From Daedaleopsis sinensis (lineage: Eukaryota > Basidiomycota > Agaricomycetes > Polyporales > Polyporaceae), in NCBI GenBank assembly GCA_033807695.1, contig CM066306.1:2108001-2172000 (forward strand): DNA of 64,000 nt, in the 5' to 3' direction. The notes beneath the pieces were generated by a model. The model was not told the origin of the DNA, did no database searches, and saw only the letters and a program-made list of their open reading frames with translations. The number at the start of each line of letters is the position of its first letter. The first letter of the stretch is position 1. Shown in pieces: positions 377 through 35,929 of the stretch. Both the position numbers and the translations under genes were made by a program.

Positions 377-3300
377 CTATTCGTCTCCCATATTCGTATC
401 ATCCCCCAACTTGTCCATGATCAACTCGTCCTGTATCTCTTTCGCCTTGTCGAGAGAGGTGGTGCCGTTTGAGAAGTTCAGGGTGAAGTCGTACGGTTCG
501 TCGATAATCTGGAGGTCGTCGACCTTGCCCGGCGGCTGAGCTTTGAGCCAGTGTTCGTCGTAACAGTTCCGGCATAACCCTGTAGGAGCCTCTGAGTCCA
601 CCACCCGTGCACCTGCCCTCCGAATACGTTGACGTGGAACCCGGCCGCCCCGGGAGCGGTTGACTAGAGCATCGGAGAAGTACTTCCGGTCGATAGTGTC
701 GAAAAAATCCCTCAACTCGGTGCTTTGCCACGCAGCCTCGATGATGAGGAATTTACCCTCGACGCGCGCCAGATCGTCCTCGGCCTCATCTCCGCTCATA
801 TGGACGGTCGTGAGCAGAGAGAACAGCTCGTAATGCTGCTTGAGTTGATAGATCGCGATGACCCAGCAACGGCTCACGTACGTCTGATGTAGGTGGTTAG
901 TCGCAGTGGCAAAACTTGATACACGGAATATTTGATGACTCACGGTCTGCTTGCGACTGTTGATCTTGTTCTGTGCCTTCCGTCGTTCGACAACCTCCGG
1001 AGGCGGAGGCCTGAACGACTGCCGCCACTTGAGTCGTGCATGGTCCATGTGAGCATCTAGTGCCAGAGCTACCTGTTCAGGGGTGAAGAATCGTGAAGGA
1101 ATGGAGGGCGCTGTGCGATAGGATCCACCGGCCACGGACTCAATCATGTGTCGTGAGAGGAAGCACCGTGCTCCTCGATTGAAGTCGTCGCGCTTCCACC
1201 CGGTGCTGAAGTCGATGCGGAAGGTCTTCCTCGTGAAGTACTTGTCCTTATTGAGCTTGAACAGCTCGCGTTCTTCGTCAGTGACAGGTGGGCAGCATCG
1301 GCCGAGCTCGCTGAGGCTCGGACAGCAGAGTAGCCAGAGCATATGTGCCCTCACCGCCGCCTGTGTTCAAGTTAGATACAGAGATCAGCAATCACATGGT
1401 TACGCTCACCTGAAAGCGATTGAGGAAGGTGCGGTCGGGGTCCCCACGTTCGCTGGCAGTCATTTCGGCGATCATTACTCCTTCTTCTTCCACAGACGTA
1501 GGTGATATGTACGGCATCTTCCATCCATCAAGCGAGACAAAGTTCGTGGTCTTCGGAGGCTGCTTCGGGCCTCGGCGCGATGGTGTGTCCTGGTGCTCCG
1601 GCATATCGTCATCATCGTCTGAGGACACTGCTGCCAGCTTCGCAGACAAATCTTCGCGAGGGGTAGCAATATTTGCAAGGAAGATGCGGGTGGCTTTCGA
1701 TCGTGGGGCTCGGCCGCTCCGCCGTGGCGTCGGAGCAGTTCCGGCGCCATGGCGGAACTGCTGTTTTGGAGGGGTGTGAGGCGACGCCATGCTCATATTC
1801 GTAAGCTGGTTGCTGACAGCAATCATGCTTTCCAAAAGCTGTGACCTATAACACCACGTTAAGCTTAATGCCCACAGCGCAGGACTCTATTTAAAGTACT
1901 CACTGTACTTTCCCATGAGAGTCGAGGCTGTCTTCGATGTAATCCATCCGGTTCATGAGCAAGAGGGTCAATTCCGACTTGGGGACGTCCTGTCGGCAAG
2001 TCAGGCAGAGCAATAGACCCAGCAGGGGAAAGATATACCTCTGGTGGCGTAGGGTAGGCTGCTCGACCCTTCCCCTTTCCTTTCGATGGTCCTGCCTCTG
2101 CTGGTGTGCTCTTCGGAGCATCGCGCGCTGGCTGCATGGCAGGCCACGAGTCACCTTCGTGCCCCATCGGCTCATCCTAGAGGGTTTACGATAGTGAGTG
2201 TGCCGCAAATACAGTAACGCGCGACTACATACCTCATCAAGCAGGCCTTGCATAAGTTGCTCGTCCCCGCGAGTATTCTCGAAGCGTACGTTCTTCGCTG
2301 ACGGTGGATTGTCAAAGGTCACCCCGAATCCTTCGTGAGCTTTTACGCTAGGTGTAGCTTGTGAAGGTCGGGCACGAGGAGCCTCGGCATGCTGAAGGTT
2401 GTTTGCAAGCGCTTGTGGCACGGAGGCTGGCGGCGGCTGGGACGGTGCTCGCATAGCCTGAGAGTACTGCAGTACGTGAGGATGGGCATACTGTGGCGGG
2501 AACTGTTGGGGAGTGGGCTGAAGTTGCAGGCGATAATCGTCTGTCTGTGGGCGTGTAGGGGCAGCGGGCGGGTACGACGGCGCACGGAGGTACTCGATGG
2601 GTGGCTGCGGCGGACCGAGAGCATATTGCGCAGGCGGGTGCGACGGCGCACGAGGATACTCGATGGGCGGTTGCTGCGGCTGCGAGGCAGGAGCGTACTG
2701 CGCAGGCGGGCGCGACGGCGCACCGTACTGCGCGGGCGGGTGCGACGGTGCACGGGGGTACTCGATGGGTGGTTGCGGCGGACCGAGAGCATATTGCGCA
2801 GGTGGGTGCGACGGCGCACGAGAATACTCGATGGGCGGCTGCTGCGGCTGCGAGGCGGGAGCGTACTGCGCAGGCGGGCGCGACGGTGCACCGTACTGCG
2901 CGGGCGGGTGCGACGGCGCACGAGGGTACTCGACGGGTGGCTGCGGCGGACCGAGAGCGTACTGCGCGGGCGGGTGCGACGGCGCACGAGGGTACTCGAC
3001 GGGTGGCTGCGGCGGACCGAGAGCGTACTGCGCAGGCGGGTGCGACGGCGCACGAGGGTACTCGACGGGTGGGGGTTGCGGGGCATGATCATACTGCGCG
3101 GGCGTGTGTGACGGCGCACCATATTGCTCGACGGGCTGCTGCAAGTATGAAGGTTGAGATGCCATGCGGTGGTCGGTCAGAGCATGCGATGGCGCCCGAG
3201 AGGGTTCGGTTCGCGGGTGCAATGAGCCCGCTTGGTGCTGTGTTGTAGCAGTGTAATGAGCGGGTACGGGGGGTTGACGGGAGGCTTGACGAGCGGGCGG

Positions 3301-4155
3301 GGGGCCTTGGGGAGCCTGAGACGAGTCGGTCGGACGAGCGGTCGAGGGGCCTTGGGATGGATACTCGACTTCACGAGCAGCCGTATGAGGGTCTTGAGAC
3401 TGAATGTCCAAGGTTTGAGAGGAGTCGGTCGGATCGACGCTGAAATCTATAAGCATTGCGTCGTCCGATGGGTTACCAGTGTGTGAAGGCTGGCCAGCAG
3501 CTGTAGCGGCAGCCTCGTTCTCTATTCGCACTTGGCTCGTGCCGTATGCAGTCCAGTACGCCGCTGCGCGTGCCTAAACTCGATCGTCAATAAATTCACA
3601 AGATGTACACACATCCAAGCGTATGCGTACCTGAACTTCTGGAGTGAGTTCAAACGTGTTGTCTGTGTTAACGTTGCGGCTGCTGATGCGATGCTTTGGC
3701 CGGCGTATCTCAATACGTTTCTTGTGCACTCCGTCCTTGATGCCTAAAGGTCCAGCCCAATCCTTGTGCAATGGGCGAGTGAGACGCGACGCTTCGGATG
3801 GGGTCGAAGAACTTACGGCGATATGGGTTTTGCTCGACTTATCGTTGATCAACTTGTCGTGCCTGATCTTGCCGCGTTTGGTGCCGGCGAGACTCACTGA
3901 TTCCGTTAAGAGTTCTGACAGACCATGGGTGCCCTCCTGAGGAACGTCAGAGGTAGTCGCAGTGGTCGTCACCACGAGTGGTGAAGGCGCTATGGCAGCC
4001 TCGTTCCCAACAGTGGGCGTCACCACGAGTGGTGAAGGCGCTACGGCAGTCTCGTTCCCAGCAGTAGATTGTTGGTCGGTCGCCTCCACCTCCACTGCGC
4101 TCGAGGAAGGGTGGGGTGTTGTAGTAGACTGGTGGTCTGGAGGATCCATGTGCAA
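377..4155 (-). CDS. Proline-rich repeat protein, six exons, 1163 aa, function unknown
   Basis: I read six exons joined by in-phase GT-AG introns: 4155-3631, 3573-2233, 2176-1904, 1838-1410, 1360-944 and 883-377, giving 1163 residues. The N-terminal part is Ser/Thr-rich with basic patches. Residues about 330-520 are a tandem proline/tyrosine-rich region with units such as YPRAPSHPPAQYALGPPQPP. A low-complexity basic stretch follows, then a more ordered C-terminal part of about 300 residues with Cys pairs (CCPPV, CRNCYDEHW) that might bind metal. I recognise no named family. It is the gene nearest the left inverted repeat and transcribes towards it. By position it could be the accessory DNA-binding protein that CACTA elements carry beside the transposase, but this is inference. 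An upstream start is not excluded. Confidence 0.7.
2580..3130. repeat. In-frame coding minisatellite
   Basis: A tandem array of GC-rich units with a basic period of 66 bp (22 codons). Some units carry a longer 102-bp form encoding an extra APASQPQQPP segment. Units are 85-98 per cent alike by eye. It lies in exon 2 of the 1163-aa gene and keeps the frame, so copy number can change protein length without breaking it. The long open frames on the other five frames here are by-products of the repeat. Confidence 0.9.
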
Positions 4156-4451: not shown

Positions 4452-5490
4452 CTAGCTAGACGGATCCCCATGCACGCGTACCCTGTAGATGCATGTGGAC
4501 GCTGAGCCCCAATTGTCGACAATCTCGAGTATCACAAGTCCGAAGTCGAGCGTGAGTTCGCGGAAGATTGGGCGCACGGGGAAGGTTTGAATCGGGGATG
4601 GAGATTGGATGTCGTACGTGAAATTGGCGAGGACGACAAAATTCGCCACATTCCTACCCGTCCAAGGAGGTGCCTGGGGTTGCTCACCAACACGAAGGAG
4701 AATTTGGTGGTCCACCAGAAGTTGCTCGTTGCGATCCCCATCAATAACCCCCCAAAGGACCATGCGAGCAGGAGCAACACCGGGGTCGGCTGCAAGCTCG
4801 ACAGGTATATGGTCGACGGTGACAGACGTGGGATAGATGAAGCTGGGTAGCACGATACCAAGCTGTCCATGAGAGGACGGTACATGCCAGCAATTGCCGA
4901 TGCGATTGTCGTCTGTAAGGGCTAGAGTGGGATGTATCGCAGATTGTGTGGTGAGTTCCTCGTCGACGAGAGCTCCGTCTGCGAGCAAGGCAAAATCTCT
5001 AAGCAGCACGGGTCCTTTGAGAAGCTGGGTGATGCGGTCGTTAATGTGCCGTTCAAGGTCAGGCGTGATGTAGGCAATTGCGGGCGAGCTTGGAATCAAG
5101 CGATACCAACTGGTGGGCGGCCCTAGCCGTGACGTCTTCAGGGAGATGTGACTTGCGAGTAGAGTGAACCATCCATCACGGACCAACAGGTACACCGCGA
5201 TGATGAACACGGGGAAGAAAGAAGCAAGCCACTTTGCAGTAGCGAGCCAACGCGGCGGCGATGCAGCTGGAGTAGAGGAAAGGGGGGAAGAGTTGGGTGC
5301 TGACGAGGGGACGGTCAGGGCGACCTCTTCCTGGGGGTCGTCGGGCCATCGCACGCCTTTGCGCTCTGGATACTCCATATAAGGCGGATTCGAAGATGTA
5401 CGGGTATGAATACGTACTGAGAGTCGCCTCTTTGCCGCCTCCAAATCTACTCGGATTGAACTTGGCAAGACGGTCATCGTCGGTAGACAT
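4452..5490 (-). CDS. SUN-domain membrane protein, 328 aa
   Basis: SUN proteins sit in the inner nuclear membrane and bind KASH peptides across the perinuclear space, linking the nucleus to the cytoskeleton. The gene has two exons, 5490-5418 and 5365-4452. The start MSTDDDRLAKFNP is chosen because a GTACGT donor then restores the frame (KRKGVRWPDDP). A hydrophobic segment, FFPVFIIAVYLLV, near residue 85 is a single membrane anchor. The C-terminal ~200 residues match the SUN fold: a DFALLADGA-like start, then GNCWHVPSSHGQLGI, VTVDHIP, PARMVLWGV and a closing FGLVILEIVDNWGS and YRVRVHG. The coiled coil usual before the domain is short, as in compact fungal forms. It lies inside the large inverted-repeat element and is intact, so it looks like cargo. 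Confidence 0.85.
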
Positions 5491-6393
5491 TTCGTTGGAA
5501 TGGAGGACGAGTGGCGCATGAGATGAGGAACAAAGGTTGGTGAGCGGTGGCTGGGCGGCTGGACGCGCACATAGGCGCGCAAGGCACACAAGGCGCTTCC
5601 TCGGGGCGCAGAAGGCACTCCGGCGCGTCTTCAAGCTTCAAGCTCAGCGCTCAAGCTTCAAGCAGGCCTTCAAATTCACCACCATGACCCTCTGCTGAGT
5701 GCTCTTTCCTCGCGCGCGCTCTCTGCTCTTACCGTCGAACTTGTCATCTACGTCGCTCTGCACGCTCTCGAACGGGTCCGACCAGCTTCCGAGCGCAACT
5801 CGGGCTCGCGGAACGAACGGTCACCGACGACACGACACGATACCCCGCTCCTCCCCGGCCTGAGTTAGGTACTTCAGTGTTTATCACTGCCCCATGTGCT
5901 CTTCGTGCGGCCTTCAGAACCGGCGCGTGCCTTCCGCTCACTTCGCAGTTTGGTCGCACGGCACTTCAGAGGAGCTCGTGCCGCGTTGCGTCCGAAGATA
6001 CATCTGGGGGGCAACAGGTACGTACCTGCACGTTTGAGCATTTTAGGTATACTTACCACCCGTTGCGCAGACGGGCTGCCAATGTCGTTCACGAGGACGT
6101 CCAAGTAGGTCGAGAAGCGATATAAGTAGGTGGGGCCGCATCTATGTATGTCGACTCCGACTGTGCATCCGACGCCTTTTGCGCGTTCCCTTACCTCGTA
6201 TCTAGGAGACGTCACTACGCTACCCCGAACCATGACAGGAGAAGCATAGGCGGCGGAAGACGTCTGCCGAGAGGTTGGCGGAGGAGACGGTGGAGCAGGA
6301 GCGCGCCCTCAATAGGATATTTGGGAGCTTCTCGTGAAGATCTGCATGGACGCGGCGCGGTTGCGTGTTCAACACATGTGCGTGTTGGTATAA
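5491..6393. other. Region without a supported gene
   Basis: This stretch lies upstream of the SUN gene and ends at the target site of the foldback element. Short open frames occur on both strands, but I could not join any into a convincing coding structure. Bases near 5570-5680 hold a purine/pyrimidine-skewed stretch with repeated TCAAGCTTCAAG-like words. It may hold the SUN gene promoter. Confidence 0.5.
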
Positions 6394-28692: not shown

Positions 28693-29717
28693 ACATTGGT
28701 TATAGGAGGCTCACCTCGGGCGCTTAAACGAAGGTGAGTAGCCTCGTGTCTGCTAGGACTGGTGCATGCAGGACGCTTACGCACACCATGAGCACTGACG
28801 CGCACCATGAGCACTGTGTGCCCTCCAGTGACTAACTGTGCGCGAGGTGTCTCATACGTGCCGTAGTGTGCACAATCGCGCACCCCTGCGCCGACTTGTG
28901 CACCTGCGCGCGCACAATTGGCTGATATGTTACATGTCTCGCGCGATGATATGTAACCTGCCTGAAAAATATCACGGCGATATCTCCTTGAGCATATCGC
29001 TTGGGACGATATCACCGTGATATGTTTGTTATATGTTCCCTGTCAAAGGCTTTGATATGGTCAAAGAGATCTTATTCATGTCCTGCACCGTGCCACGGCG
29101 CCTGTCACTTTCATTTCCTGCCTCGAGAATCGGTCAAACATTTCTTTGGGTGCGAAATTTACTGAACAGATTACATTTCCTTTCATCATCTCCCTTAGCG
29201 ACAGGTTCAAACTCCAGTGACTTGACGTTATAGCTATCTTTGTACGAGATTTATTATGGATATGAATCAGGGTTCGAACATAGCCATTATTATATCATTG
29301 AACGTGCCTGGATACATTTCACGCAGATATCTCAGCATGGGACGCTTGAAGATATCTATGCGACTGACATAGGACATACATTGTTGGGATACTTTACGTG
29401 TCAGTCGCATTGAAATTGCCGTGATATGACTGGGCTAGGTCACGTCGCTCGCGCATTTCCCAGCGATGTCAGGGGTCCTTAAATCCGGGGATGCACGCTG
29501 TGTATGATGATTTTGGTCGTCATCTTGGAGTGATGGAGTATTATGTAATGGGTGCTTAGCCTAGCCAATTCATTAAGCCTTATACACCTGCACGATGTCG
29601 ATGCCACACAAACTATGACGTCAATCAACATCATCTGGTAATATCAAGGTTAATGCCGTAACTAAGCGCTTGTTATGTAAGCAACCAAAAGGCTCAGGTG
29701 ACATCATACTTTTTATA
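28693..29717. other. Intergenic DNA with two inverted-repeat hairpins
   Basis: No gene is supported. Composition drops from GC-rich to more AT-rich after about 28930, suggesting that the large element ends near there. Two hairpin-capable pairs are visible: ATATCACGGCGATATC (28969) with GATATCACCGTGATAT (29008), and ATGCGACTGACA (29358) with TGTCAGTCGCAT (29399). Confidence 0.5.
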
Positions 29718-29724
29718 GTGTTGA

Positions 29725-29817
29725 TTAGTCTCGTGACCAGACGTTCGGAGCACGAAGCAGAGATGAAAAACAGCGAGAAACAGTGCTCCTGAACGTCTGG
29801 TGGCTTTTCCCCCGTGA
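29725..29817. repeat. Left TIR of the DUF6589/RecQ element, self-complementary
   Basis: Starts TTAGTCTCGTGACCAGACG. Within it CCAGACGTTCGGAGCAC and GTGCTCCTGAACGTCTGG are an almost perfect inverted pair (one-base indel), so each end can fold into a hairpin. Confidence 0.88.
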
Positions 29818-29903
29818 CACCCCCCACGGTGACCACGCAGTAACGTTTGTGACATTCCGGCTTGTTCTCCGACGTCTCCGAACTGCTTCTTCACGCGTCT
29901 AGT

Positions 29904-32707
29904 ATGTCTTCTGGTGTCCAAGAGTTTCCACTCGATCCCACCCCGGACGACCTCCTCAATGGATGGGGCTCTCTTTTTGACGATGTTGACGATGACCCCG
30001 ACATTCTCAATGGCAGCCCAGAATACGAGAGTGACCGGCTCTCAGACACTTCGGATTGGGATCCTGTCGAGGTTCGAGATGAGGAGATGCCTCGCCAGCC
30101 TCCCATCCAGCTCTCACAGACTCGCGCATTGCGCGATCGTCTTGGATCTGCTAATAAAAGCGACCGCATCGTCGCCATTCTGGAGTATATGGAGTCTCTC
30201 GACATGAACATTCCAATCTTTTTGGATGCGCTGAGCTGGGGCGACGATGGATGCATATCTCACCCGAAGATCCAGTATGCCCGTACCGCGCTCATGGTTA
30301 GTGAGGAGCTCCCTGGGATCCTCGAGCGATGGCACAAAGTACCGCAGGCCAGCACCTCCCGGCACCACCATGTCCGTCCTCTGGGGGCTCGGAAAGCCCT
30401 AGAGGCATTCGCGCTGGACTGTGTTGCCAACATTGTTGACCGCGAGTTGGAAGCAAGTGCCGACATCTTCCGTTCACACAAGGACTCGCTATCTGAGGGG
30501 GGTTTGAAGAGCTTTCAATTCAAATCAGTCATTCGAAAGCTACAGGACGACTCCGGTGCCCCTAACACCTTTCGACTTCTACATGGGGCCATGCATCGTG
30601 CACTGCGCCGCCGTGGGGTGGGTGAACATAATACTATGAGCAAAGGGCGCAAGAAGACGGAGTGTGTGAGTCTAGTAGTCCATGTGTAGTATCCGGTGAA
30701 TTAGTTATGAATATAATACTGAAATATATGTGCTACTACTAGGCCACGGTCATGGTGCTCAGCGAGATTCAGTATATGCGATGCCATAGCCTGACGGCAT
30801 GGACGAAGCCTCTCACCGTATTTCTCAAGGCGAAGGGTGTATCAGCAAAGGCACTAGACCTTCTGCACATCTTTGGAGTAACCATGAGCCACAGCTGGAG
30901 TGTCCGCGCATATGCAGGTATCTCGGCTCGGGCGATGGAGGCAGTTCAACAAGTTATCCTTCTCCTGCTCTGGTGGCTCGCATACGATAACGTGAACTTC
31001 GCATTTCGTGTTTTCTCCCAACGCCTGGAGAATCAGTCGCACTTCGACTCGGGGACGACCGGTTCGATCTTTGTCAAGCCCTTTGTCCCACAGCCTCCTC
31101 CATTGCATAGCCAGTCGTTGCGGGAGAAGCGGATGGCGGGGAGGCAGAACCCTATCAATCTCGCGGAAATCCTATCTCTCGAAGTCCAAGCCGGACCCCG
31201 CATTCACTCCCACATCGTTCACACCGTGCTCAAAATGCTGCTAGACTGTCCGGAGTTCAACCTCGAAACATACAGCGATAAAAGTCATGCTGCCCTTGCC
31301 CCTCCTCCTCCTGTTCACCGTCTCCCCAGCGGCCCTTTACACATCACGAAACAGTACGTTCTCGGCACAGTACACATCGACGAATCAAGCTATGATGGAA
31401 CAGACGATCTGATCAAGGAGTGGTTCAGTCAGCTTGGTTTGAACGGCCCAAAAGACCAGGTGCATACAGGGCTCGAGCGGGTCATTGTCTGGATTGGGGA
31501 TCAACTCACTGTCGAGCGTCTTCGCGGCCTGGCCAACTATCGGTGTGAAGACCGCAATCCATATGACCGTATGGACTGGCTAGTCACGGTTTTCGGATGG
31601 TTTCACCTTCTCATGGCGTTCTCCAACTCCCTACACCGCCAGTTCTTTGGTTCGACTTCAGGAAAGGGGCTGCGGCAAGCGTTCGCGCTGCTGAATCGCA
31701 AAGGGCTGCAGTCAGTACAGATCAAAGGCCCATTCCATCATCACTTACACGAGGGTATCGTTCACGTCGCTGAAGCACATGTTCTCGACTGCTGGAAGAA
31801 GATCGGTGGCCCGGGGGTGTCGACACTCGAAGATCTCAGGAGCAAGACAGCGGTGGAGCTCGAAGCGCTCGTGAACGTCCTTGTCGAGAGATATGCGTCA
31901 ACTGATGCTATTGAGGACCTGGAGACGAAGATGGAAGATCAGGGAGATGAAGTATTGCAGCAAGCGATCATGTGGAATCGTGACGTACTCTACTATCTTG
32001 TGCTTCATCGGGCCATGCAGATGGGCGATGTCGGCCTCATGGAAGACCTCCTGCCACATCTGTTCTTTCGCTTCTCTGGCGGCGGAAACCACAAATATGC
32101 GGTTGAATGTCTCGAGCTACTACAAGGACTTCACCGGGAATGGCCTGATGACGTCAAGTGAGTCGCCAGATACTGTGCGTATGAAGACGATTGTGACTTA
32201 CGCTGTGATAGGAAACATGTCCACGAGAACTGTTGGCTCGTAAACTTGAAGGGCGGGCCTGAGGACTTTGATCCGATCGACCTCGTTATCGAGCACACAG
32301 TTAAAGAGGTCAAGGTCACATACCGTCCAAAGGGCCCAAATGCCTCGTGGGACTTGATGAAGGCACGTGCGCCCGCCATTCCGACACTTCGAGCCCTAGA
32401 CGACGACTTCAATCATCAGTTCCCCACAATCTATAGGGGCACTAGTCACACTGCACCTTCAAAGAATGCGGACGTCCGCAAACTCATGGAACATTACTCT
32501 CGCGCAAAGATTCACGAATACGTCGCCGGGCGAGAGGCTGCGGATAACATCCGAGAGGTTGTTAGCGAAGGTTACAATACCGCGAATACGAACATCATAC
32601 CCCGGTGGTGGACTCGGAGGTCCATATATACACGTGCTAATACGGAGAAGTGGCCCCCAACCTTCCCAGCTGGAGCGACGGAACCTGCAGAGCCAGCGGC
32701 TGGTTGA
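29904..32707 (+). CDS. DUF6589-domain protein, 890 aa
   Basis: Three exons: 29904-30665, 30743-32157 and 32212-32707, with consensus GTGAGT donors, giving 890 residues. The N-terminus is acidic (FDDVDDDPDI) and the middle helical. The DUF6589 signature lies in the central-to-C-terminal part: VIVWIGDQLTVERLRGLANY, then YDRMDWLVTVFGWFHLLMAF, SLHRQFFGSTSGKGLRQAF and AEAHVLDCWK. The domain is frequent and multicopy in Basidiomycota, and its function is not established to my knowledge. The conserved Asp/His pattern (GDQLT, RMDWL, FHLL, HVLDCW) could be the acidic set of an RNase H-fold nuclease, which is inference. An ATG at 29862 would add 14 residues. It converges on the helicase gene with 6 nt between stop codons. 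Confidence 0.85.
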
Positions 32708-32713
32708 ACTCCA

Positions 32714-35580
32714 TCAACAGTCGGGCTCCGAGTCGGGGTCAGGCGCTATAGTCTCGGAGTCAAACTGCGGAGCAGGTAGACGAGGCAGCGAGGAGGAAGA
32801 TGGTGCTGCTGAAGGTACAGCGGTGATATGAGGAGGGGAACTGTGTGTGGCGGTCGCAGACGGGCAGGTACTAGTCAAAGTTGCGGAGTTGGGATTGGGA
32901 GCCTGCGGGGCCGGCTGGGGACTTGGAGCCATTGTGTGCGGCGAGGATGGCCATGCAGGCCCAGGGTGCGGATAGGACAAGGGGCTCATGCCATATGGAT
33001 TAGCAGCGTAGCAGACTGCGTACGCATATCCATATGCGGTCGTCATCGGGGGCGAGTAGGCTAGAGACGGAGAAGAAACATGGGTAGGGGAGGCATTGTG
33101 GAATGTTGTCGCATGCATGGCGGTCGCATGTGATGATGACCACATCCACTGCCGTTGGGCCTTTGCGAGTTCCTTTGCGGCAGCCTCTTGAGCACGTCGT
33201 TGTTGTGTTTGCGCCTTCCTCGCCTCCCGCGCTGCACGTATAGCTGCCTGCCGCCTTGAGTCCTCCTCCGCGTCGAGCTGTTTGACCAACGCAAGGACCT
33301 CTTCGCCGTGTATCTCCAAGTGTGGCCACGGGGCTTTGAGGATCCGACGGAGGTCTTCAAGCGTCTTGATGCCACGGCGGTGTGAAGATATGCTCTTGAG
33401 GATCGGGTCTGGAAGGAGATTGGCCGCCTTGATCGAAGTATACTTGTACCTTGCCCGCCGTGTAGTATAGCGCCAGTCGCGCAGAGCCTTTTGGATATTC
33501 TTCAGATGTGCCCCAGAGCGACGCTTTGGGGACCCCCGTGGCTGCCGATTAGGTCGACGAGTCGGTGTCTGTGGCTCGTCTGGAGGGATATTCTCGTCCT
33601 ACAGCAGTCGTTAGTATGCACCTCGCATCATGCCAGGGTTGCACCGGCACTCAATGTGACGCACCGGTACAGTCCCATCTCCAAGTTCCTCATACCCGAG
33701 CTCCCCCACCTCAGGATCCATGTCGTTCGAGCCCGGAAGTGCGTGGCTACTACGCGCAGTGTCGCCGCAATCTGCCATGAGGCCAGGTGGACCGGATGGG
33801 GCCAGTACGACTACCCGGGAACCTGCCGCCGTACATTGTATTAGGTAGCGTACTGGACAGAGACCGGTTCATGCTCACCAGTACTAGTCTCGTTAGTCGG
33901 CATGGATGGGACTATCGCAGCGCAATTATCGCAGCAGAGGGAAGGTGGGTGGTCTGTGGGAAGGTTGTGAACAACACACGGCGAAGACGCGGAGAGGAAC
34001 GTTTGGGCGCCTATCGCATTTACGTACTGGCTGTGCGTGGAGGGTTGTCGAAATACACGTCCGCGACCTCTCTTCTACAACCATCCGTCTCGATCCACAG
34101 ACGGAGAGACTCCTCGATTGTCTTCTTATACCTCACTTTGGGCTCCTCTCTATCCGCTTCCTCCTCGGCTTCTTCGAACTCCGAGTCGGATGCATCTTCA
34201 GTAGCGACTGCCATGGCTGAAGGCTTGCTACTGTTCCCGCTGAGCTTTTGAACCACCGAGATCTCTACAAGCATGACAGCTCGCGCCCGGAGTGATGGAG
34301 AACGGCCAGCCCTGCCAGCTCGCTGCAGCCATATGCCAAGATTTTCGGGCACACCAAACTGTACAGCTAGCGCAATGTCCGGTACGTCCATTCCCTAACC
34401 GAACCAAAGATTAGCAGCAGTGCAGTCGAGCACATGTGCACGCACCATTGCTGCTGCCTCTGTAGCAACCAGGACCCTGATATCCCCTCGTTGAAATAGA
34501 TCCCACTCATCAGCTTTCGAAAAATCGGTTCTCTTTGCATGCAAAATCCCGATCTGATCACGAAGAGCCGGACCCACAACTTCTCGCAGTCGATGTGCAA
34601 CAGCATGGCACTTCGGGATCGCATTGACAAAAACAATTGTCCTCGGTAATTCTTCTCGCGTGTTCGCACCTTCTGCAATGAAGTCAACTGCGGCATAGTC
34701 GCTAGCCGACTTCATGTAGCGGACTTCCTGCTTGATGTTCGCGCGATCGTTACCAAGATTGAGATGGAACGAATGCTCGGCACGGATTCCTAACTTGTCC
34801 CGTGTGATTCCGAGCGCGAGAGGCGTGAAGGTTGCTGATGTCGCGAGCATAGGCACACGATACGGCACGAGCGCACGCAGCTTGTCGAGAAGGTCGTATT
34901 CTTTGCGGAAGTCCTTCCCCCATTGCGTGATACAATGTGCCTCATCTATGATGAAGGCCCCTATCTGGGACGCGAAACGTGGGGTGGAGATGAGCTTCTG
35001 AAAGCGTGGATGCTCTAACATCTCCGGAGAGGTGAGCACAATCCTATATTTTCCATGCTCGATGTCCTATAAACTGATAAGTGGAATTCATATATATATA
35101 TATACACATGCACACACACCTGCAGGAGGTGCTCGTTGTATGTGACCTTGTTTACAGCGGCTGCCGGCACGTCCAACTTGGTGAACCGGAGAGCCTGTAA
35201 GACATACAGACGGTCAGTCACGTTCAACTGACTCTCATGCTTCGGATATACTGTACTTGATCAGCCTCGAGTGCATTCAAAGGGGAGATTACGAAGTATA
35301 TCTTCTCATGTTCGACAAATGTAGGCATCACGAATGGCATTGTCTTCCCGCAACCTGTTCCCGCGACAACCGTACAATCAAGGCCCAGGAGCAGAGCTTC
35401 GGTGACATCCAACTGCCATGGATGGGGTGTCTTGCCACCTATCCGTTCGCGGAAGACCGCCGTGAGCTTTGCGCGGGTGCCTTCCGAATCGTATCCTCGC
35501 GTAGCTTGAGCCGCAGTTCGAGCGGCCTGCAGATTTTCGTACGACCACGCGGTCTGCTCTGCATGGGACTCGGAGAGCAC
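32714..35580 (-). CDS. RecQ-like superfamily 2 DNA helicase, 834 aa
   Basis: ATP-dependent 3'-5' DNA unwinding is the family activity. Seven exons fit exactly: 35580-35257, 35194-35120, 35066-34446, 34394-34028, 33953-33879, 33822-33665 and 33598-32714. Motifs in order: PHPWQLDVTEALLLG (motif 0), Walker A GTGCGKT, SPLNALEADQ (Ia), DEAHC (II), MLATSATF (III), RTIVFVN (IV), LVATEAAAMGMDVPDI (V), LQRAGRAGR (VI). A zinc-binding part follows with CRREV and CCDNC. There is no HRDC domain; instead about 300 residues with a helical module (IQKALRDWRYTTRRARYKYT, LKAPWPHLEIHGEEVLALV), a coiled coil and a Pro/Ser tail. Similar helicases are multicopy in basidiomycetes. A role in replicating or excising the element is inference. 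Confidence 0.88.
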
Positions 35581-35740
35581 TGGTCAAGAGGGTGTCGGTG
35601 CCATGCCGGTGTCGCGCAAGGAAAGAATAGGGAGGTCGAGACCGGTGAGATGGATGCTGCTGAGGCTGCGACGCGCTCCGAAGTGTTCGGCAAGACATTC
35701 GCGACGACTGTCTATGTCACATATGTCACCGACCGGGGAG

Positions 35741-35822
35741 TCACGGGCAAAAAGCCACCAGACGTTCAGGAGCGCGGGTTGTCCCGCATTTTCACGCTCC
35801 GAACGGCTGGTTCCGAGACTAA
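35741..35822. repeat. Right TIR of the DUF6589/RecQ element, self-complementary
   Basis: Inverted relative to the left TIR, ending CCGAGACTAA at 35822. It again contains a pair that can fold back (CCAGACGTTCAGGAGCGCG with CACGCTCCGAACGGCTGG), with a different loop sequence. The stem halves are conserved while the loop is not. Confidence 0.88.
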
Positions 35823-35929
35823 GTGTTGATGTCTTTCGGGAGGTGGAGGCAGCTTATATAAGCCTCTTATGTAATGTGCACTTAAACATTGTTTTGGGCA
35901 CACCTTCCTGCCCAGCCTTAGCCTCTATA

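Follow-up and report, generated by a model that had tools for sequence, protein, structure and literature searches.

The 64,000-nucleotide stretch of the Daedaleopsis sinensis genome analysed here (the window; C7:2108001-2172000, in a genome of 51.6 Mb and 24 contigs) contains, at 29726-35821, an element with inverted ends, a flanking repeat and two convergent genes, of which the plus-strand gene matches DUF6589, a Pfam family of unknown function, and the minus-strand gene encodes a RecQ-like helicase. We consider it probable that this element is a DDE-type DNA transposon, most likely of the AcademH lineage, in which the DUF6589 protein acts as the transposase and the RecQ-like helicase serves transposition. 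A first-pass annotation of this DNA had claimed a mobile unit here, and the duplications, empty sites and recurring gene pair described below support that claim.

The longest exact match between the two flanks of the window copy is 9 bp, AGTGTTGAT, at 29717-29725 and 35822-35830, and this register gives the tips TAGTCTCG...CGAGACTA. The first-pass annotation was right that the flanking repeat is a duplication and wrong about its length and register: its 7-bp reading describes the same junction in another register, and we rejected it for the 9 bp of AGTGTTGAT, the register common to other copies, including related copies and two miniature derivatives. The empty sites fit the 7-bp and 9-bp registers equally. 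The matching inverted ends that it had also reported are present as terminal inverted repeats at 29726-29835 (left, plus strand, tip TAGTCTCG) and 35712-35821 (right, minus strand, tip CGAGACTA, placed by self-BLAST and the flank match), which are complementary over 32 nt (84%) and over 70 nt (80%); the left end is 94% identical to the left end of L017, the copy on C4.

Uninterrupted counterparts of ten junctions were sought by joining the flanks with one duplication kept, and the empty sites that this returned are paralogous sites, not alleles. The junction of the window copy is uninterrupted at three other places with 80-82% identity, where the duplication stands as a single copy one or two letters off AGTGTTGAT. 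The L017 junction has eight listed places (83-100% over 120-odd bp around the junction), the L018 junction three (100, 97 and 93%) and the L020 junction two, both at 83%. No empty site was found for the junctions of L019, L021, L023, L033 and L035, and a match of the L024 junction at C2:1023559 was not counted since it is poor across the junction. Each of the 11 empty sites inspected among the 16 has one copy of a 9-10 bp target and no element, which bears out the expectation that empty sites would agree with the boundaries. The identical empty site of L018 lies within the L021 element, and because the two ends of L018 also match each other at 100% over 208 bp, the sequence points to a recent insertion.

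Matches to DUF6589 in the genome comprise 30 exon matches, grouped into 16 loci, and at 13 of these (the window, L017-L027 and L031) a convergent RecQ-like helicase lies within a few kb; a single RecQ query from the window found 12 of the 13, the other being L031. The earlier proposals that the two genes would be systematically adjacent and that the ends would be multicopy both hold in the D. sinensis genome. Ends without DUF6589 are common, with at least 44 matches to a strung query of ten ends, a lower bound since 40 of 143 candidates were scored. Some of the loci show features of their own. A lone RecQ-like gene, L029, lies about 10 kb from the DUF6589 gene of L028; L026 and L027 (C5:4197500-4229000), about 22 kb apart, share an identical 546-aa helicase reading and look like a segmental duplication; L022 carries at 1276-4048 a 1,091-bp inverted repeat (95%) inside its helicase part; and in L024 about 1.4 kb (4715-6099), likely a nested insertion, separates two DUF6589 parts that adjoin in other copies.

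Self-BLAST of 20 sequences revealed inverted ends at the window, L017-L021 and L023-L026, with the inverted match lying inside the tips in L020, L025 and L026, and a long internal inverted repeat in L022. When the 16 loci were searched for the tip pattern [TC][AG]G[GT]CTC at either side and flanks that match, L017, L018, L019, L020, L023 and L024 each gave exactly one pair; the remaining 10 loci gave no pair. The duplications measure 9 bp in the window copy, 10 in L017, 9 in L018, 8 in L019 and 9 in each of L020, L023 and L024. The tips and 9-bp duplications of the window copy recur in two miniatures, L033 (95 bp, 1975-2069) and L035 (119 bp, 2025-2143), which, like L034, consist of barely more than two ends of the window family; L034 is a copy of L033 in an inverted segment, so L033 and L034 represent one insertion. 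If L033 moved as it is, about 54 and 41 bp of ends (by eye) would be enough. Two short L021-type copies also have duplications of 9 bp each, namely L054 (1,168 bp, GCTGGACAG) and the host copy of L018, a short non-autonomous copy with tips GGATAAAT and duplication GAGGGATGG in which L018 (688-8074) is nested. Altogether, among the 13 insertions with both tips located, the duplication is 9 bp in ten, 10 bp in one, 8 bp in one and lacking in one. At L055 there is one end only. Outside the 16 DUF6589 loci, L030-type ends occur at eight further places (95-98%) and L025-type ends at four (91-97%), among others at C9:3318276, C7:1582974, C5:3851653, C4:1349841, C8:4243241 and C5:515376; these are probably non-autonomous families, and no opposite end was found for the copies of these types at L057-L059 in the 2-kb pieces examined.

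The plus-strand gene matches Pfam DUF6589 with E 1e-99 and is open in full, its three exons splicing in frame to 891 aa, with the two introns placed by eye and frame. Exon 1 (29904-30665) is without a Pfam match, exon 2 (30743-32157) carries two candidate catalytic aspartates at 30986-30988 and 31499-31501, and exon 3 with the stop (32212-32707) carries the candidate catalytic glutamate at 32291-32293. These correspond to a conserved candidate triad, D82, D253 and E517 in the numbering of P0001, which we infer to be catalytic. We preferred E517 over residue 455, the E of a KYAVE motif, because E517 is invariant in 11 of 11 rows whereas residue 455 is E, Y, Q or R over 14 rows, and the latter was dropped as catalytic. 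The predicted model has an RNase H-type core that is interrupted, ahead of the last acidic residue, by a long insertion of helices only, and its fold matches are the hAT (Hermes), P element and IS256-type (ISCth4) transposases, within a VIA-align match list that leaves room for families outside it. Searches by sequence gave no such link: DUF6589 was the sole Pfam family on the gene, with no transposase family among the matches, and a PDB sequence-profile search found no match up to E 10. A BFVD fold search with the model gave no match at E 0.001 or below, and 13 stretches of viral contigs fitted a pattern for relatives, with none confirmed. In combination, the modelled fold and the conserved D, D and E are features of DDD/E transposases and make it very probable that DUF6589 is a transposase with an RNase H fold of DDE type, a possibility that the first-pass annotation had raised.

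That annotation was also correct in calling the second gene RecQ-like. The best NCBIfam match of the main exon is TIGR00614 recQ_fam (E 6.9e-23, 81 bits, the whole-protein cut-off of 219.8 not being reached), the DEAD family match lies above the Pfam cut-off, and the relatives with solved structures are WRN, bacterial RecQ, BLM, Q5 and Q1. RecQ-type helicases are 3'-5' by family. The introns and C-terminal exons of the window gene were assigned by eye, all on the minus strand: the N-terminal and helicase core exons at 34023-35604, a candidate exon with RecQ zinc-binding-like cysteines (CCDNC) at 33844-34074, for which Pfam returned no zinc-binding family match, and a C-terminal part of the helicase reading at 32717-33598, which has no Pfam match above the cut-off and may be the same gene after an intron or a separate small gene. 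The ATG at 35604 aligns with the start of the open L017 copy and is followed after six codons by an in-frame stop (35584-35586), behind which the helicase exons are open. Of the earlier statement that both genes are open in full, the part on DUF6589 therefore stands and the part on RecQ does not, and because of this early stop the window copy is probably no longer autonomous.

Sequence comparison shows that both genes were kept functional and moved together. When the window copy is set against L017, DUF6589 exon 2 has changes at 73% of synonymous sites and 10% of non-synonymous ones, and the RecQ core at 81% and 16%; in the pair L018 and L019, DUF6589 shows 52% and 5%, and RecQ 36% and 6%. The ratio of non-synonymous to synonymous change (dN/dS) is 0.04 to 0.12 in the four computable comparisons, and over ten copies the similarities of one protein follow those of the other (Mantel r 0.74, 0 of 5000 permutations), with the same nearest neighbour by both proteins in nine of the ten; the exception is L021, whose RecQ is distant from all others. 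The noncoding ends of the window copy (29726-29835 and 35712-35821) are 93-94% identical to those of L017 even though synonymous sites in the genes are at or near saturation, and this argues that the ends of the two copies are strongly constrained or homogenised.

A further feature of the ends is subterminal. In 12 of 20 ends (left and right of the window, L017, L018 and L019, together with L025_R, L026_L, L028_R and L030_R), the best internal inverted repeat begins 11-13 nt from the tip; in several families of different sequence the inverted partner of the first arm lies 20-45 nt inward. In the window copy the outer and inner arms on the left are ACCAGACGTTC at 29736-29746 and GAACGTCTGGT at 29791-29801, a dyad whose score was reached by 0 of 200 shuffles, and on the right the inner and outer arms lie at 35757-35767 and 35801-35811, all coordinates being on the plus strand. 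In 10 of the 12 ends 0 to 5 of 200 shuffles reach the score, the right ends of the window (17) and L017 (16) being the others; base composition is all that the shuffles preserve, and close kinship among several of the 12 ends means that they are not 12 independent cases. The letters of the arms vary between families with the pairing kept (CCAGACG/CGTCTGG, CCAGCCG/CGGCTGG, CCAGCCTCTA/TAGAGGCTGG). No comparable arms were found at the eight ends of L020, L021, L023 and L024, where 10 to 142 of 200 shuffles reach the best score. To us the arms look like a dyad of putative transposase-binding sites, and their folding into hairpins is possible.

The best supported course of events is a cut at the tips, integration with a stagger of about 9 bp and gap repair. 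DUF6589 would bind the two inverted ends and cut at the tips, using D82, D253 and E517 (P0001 numbering) as its active site; it would then join the ends to the two strands of the target at points offset by about 9 bp, and gap filling would leave the 9-bp duplication. RecQ is a conserved partner, and most likely would open the ends or process the strand-transfer product. Nothing that we found supports the replicative or peel-off transposition put forward in the first-pass annotation, and the results fit cut-and-paste and copying alike. A copy-out or single-strand route, in which RecQ unwinds the element and the paired arms fold into hairpins recognised by DUF6589, would account for the systematic presence of RecQ at DUF6589 loci and for arms that begin 11-13 nt from the tip, find their partner 20-45 nt inward and show paired changes between families of different sequence. 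A dyad of double-stranded binding sites gives the same pattern, however, the eight ends of L020, L021, L023 and L024 are without comparable arms, and the 95-bp L033 has, by eye, ends too short for inner arms and yet a 9-bp duplication, and we regard this route as doubtful.

It is also conceivable that the element is not a unit, and that two host genes came to lie by chance within unrelated repeats, since RecQ-like and DUF6589 sequences are each multicopy. Because the same convergent arrangement recurs at 13 of 16 DUF6589 loci, the layout is not a chance one, and the matched duplications, empty sites and shared history refute such an origin further, leaving it a negligible probability. Several observations nevertheless count against a mobile DUF6589-RecQ transposon of AcademH type. 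At L028, L030 and L032 the 7.0 to 9.5 kb examined contain no RecQ, no duplication was found at the paired loci L022, L025, L026, L027 and L031, the L024-type copy L056 (501 bp, both tips) is without one, and L021 has other tips (GGATAAAT) with a duplication of 9 bp, or 10 in another register. Three of the four window-L017 comparisons, of RecQ or DUF6589, are at or near synonymous saturation (DUF6589 exon 3 and the RecQ core are saturated). Foldseek gives low TM-scores (0.14-0.22 for the Hermes rows, by query length) and a root-mean-square deviation of about 20, so it is the VIA-align Z and topology that carry the match, at the level of the fold rather than of superposed catalytic residues; the alignment used for folding has just 22 rows, drawn from 15 loci of a single genome, and of the five models the best reached 74.2, well above the other four at 61.8-65.7. 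Mobility is read from sequence, and the role of RecQ is a proposed one. Finally, the AcademH assignment is argued from anatomy, with the comparison made by description rather than by sequence.

If DUF6589 is a transposase, genes of this family could be annotated as mobile DNA rather than as host genes, and they would be tied to the helicases that are common among transposon-derived domains in fungi. Helicases are given as the commonest such domains in the accessible portion of one survey, where most were dropped as ambiguous in stricter curation (PMC10799480). The text "DUF6589" did not occur in the 5.39 million open-licence papers searched, which leaves most subscription literature outside. 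The element is, in addition, a tractable system in which to ask what need a DDE transposase has of a RecQ helicase.

Among known systems, the hAT (Hermes), P element and IS256-type (ISCth4) transposases, which have a helical insertion in the RNase H core, resemble the DUF6589 model in its core and all-helical insertion. DUF6589 shows no sequence similarity to any of the three in the Pfam or PDB profile searches; for hAT, Pfam gave no match with E up to 1, and the C/DxxH motif is absent at H288. hAT and P elements generate duplications of 8 bp and, to our knowledge, do not encode a helicase. Helitrons are likewise eukaryotic elements with a helicase, but they are described, in the text available of PMC12730594, as using an HUH nuclease/Y1 transposase and single-stranded transposition; here we find a DDE-type fold, inverted ends and duplications, and Helitron was rejected as no Helitron or Pif1 family appeared in the Pfam matches of eight exon pieces. 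KolobokH comes closer, as the available part of PMC9587614 describes a fungal-only group with a DDD/E transposase and a RecQ downstream of the transposase domain, and the D. sinensis elements share its fungal host, its type of transposase and its helicase. The same part of that source gives Kolobok 4-bp TTAA duplications and a C/DxxH motif, whereas none of 12 duplications here is TTAA, for which KolobokH was rejected, and H288, present in 14 of 14 rows, has G, E, Q or A three residues ahead and hence no C/DxxH, in a check made at H288 without a systematic search elsewhere. RecQ here lies on the opposite strand, an arrangement with one red-algal Kolobok as precedent (PMC9587614, same part), and membership of KolobokH seems to us very improbable.

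AcademH, in the Academ superfamily, remains the closest description in anatomy. Its founding account is reportedly Kojima 2020, Mob DNA 11:15. As far as the accessible text of PMC10045372 and PMC10799480 goes, AcademH is a helicase-encoding DNA transposon with 9 or 10 bp duplications in Basidiomycota, low-copy there and in Ascomycota and Mucoromycota (PMC10799480), and putative non-autonomous Academ elements are described as widespread in the mushroom Marasmius oreades (PMC8290104, in part). The elements studied here agree in having a predicted transposase of DDD/E type and a helicase, RecQ-like at 13 of 16 DUF6589 loci, in duplications of 9 or 10 bp in 11 of 13 insertions, and in low copy number, with 16 DUF6589 loci in a 51.6-Mb fungal genome. 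Alternatively, DUF6589 could define a DDE superfamily of its own that reached the combination with RecQ and 9-bp duplications independently of Academ, as the lack of a sequence link to any transposase (DUF6589 the sole Pfam family, no PDB profile match) would allow. The helicase, the duplication length and the fungal host are nonetheless AcademH features in the portions of PMC10045372 and PMC10799480 at hand, and Academ too is placed outside the C/DxxH group in the corresponding portion of PMC9587614, which makes independent origin unlikely. Rather improbable as well is a fuller version with DUF6589 as its own superfamily or a deep branch beside Academ, an obligatory RecQ partner and paired subterminal arms opened or folded by the helicase, in which strand unwinding would be a built-in step of DDE transposition. 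The first-pass annotation knew of no described family of this kind, and two helicase-bearing ones are on record in the sources as available: AcademH, with transposase, helicase and 9-10 bp duplications in fungi, and KolobokH, with RecQ. We infer AcademH membership from this shared anatomy, and the element then most likely belongs to a lineage described before, its value lying chiefly in a probable function for DUF6589.
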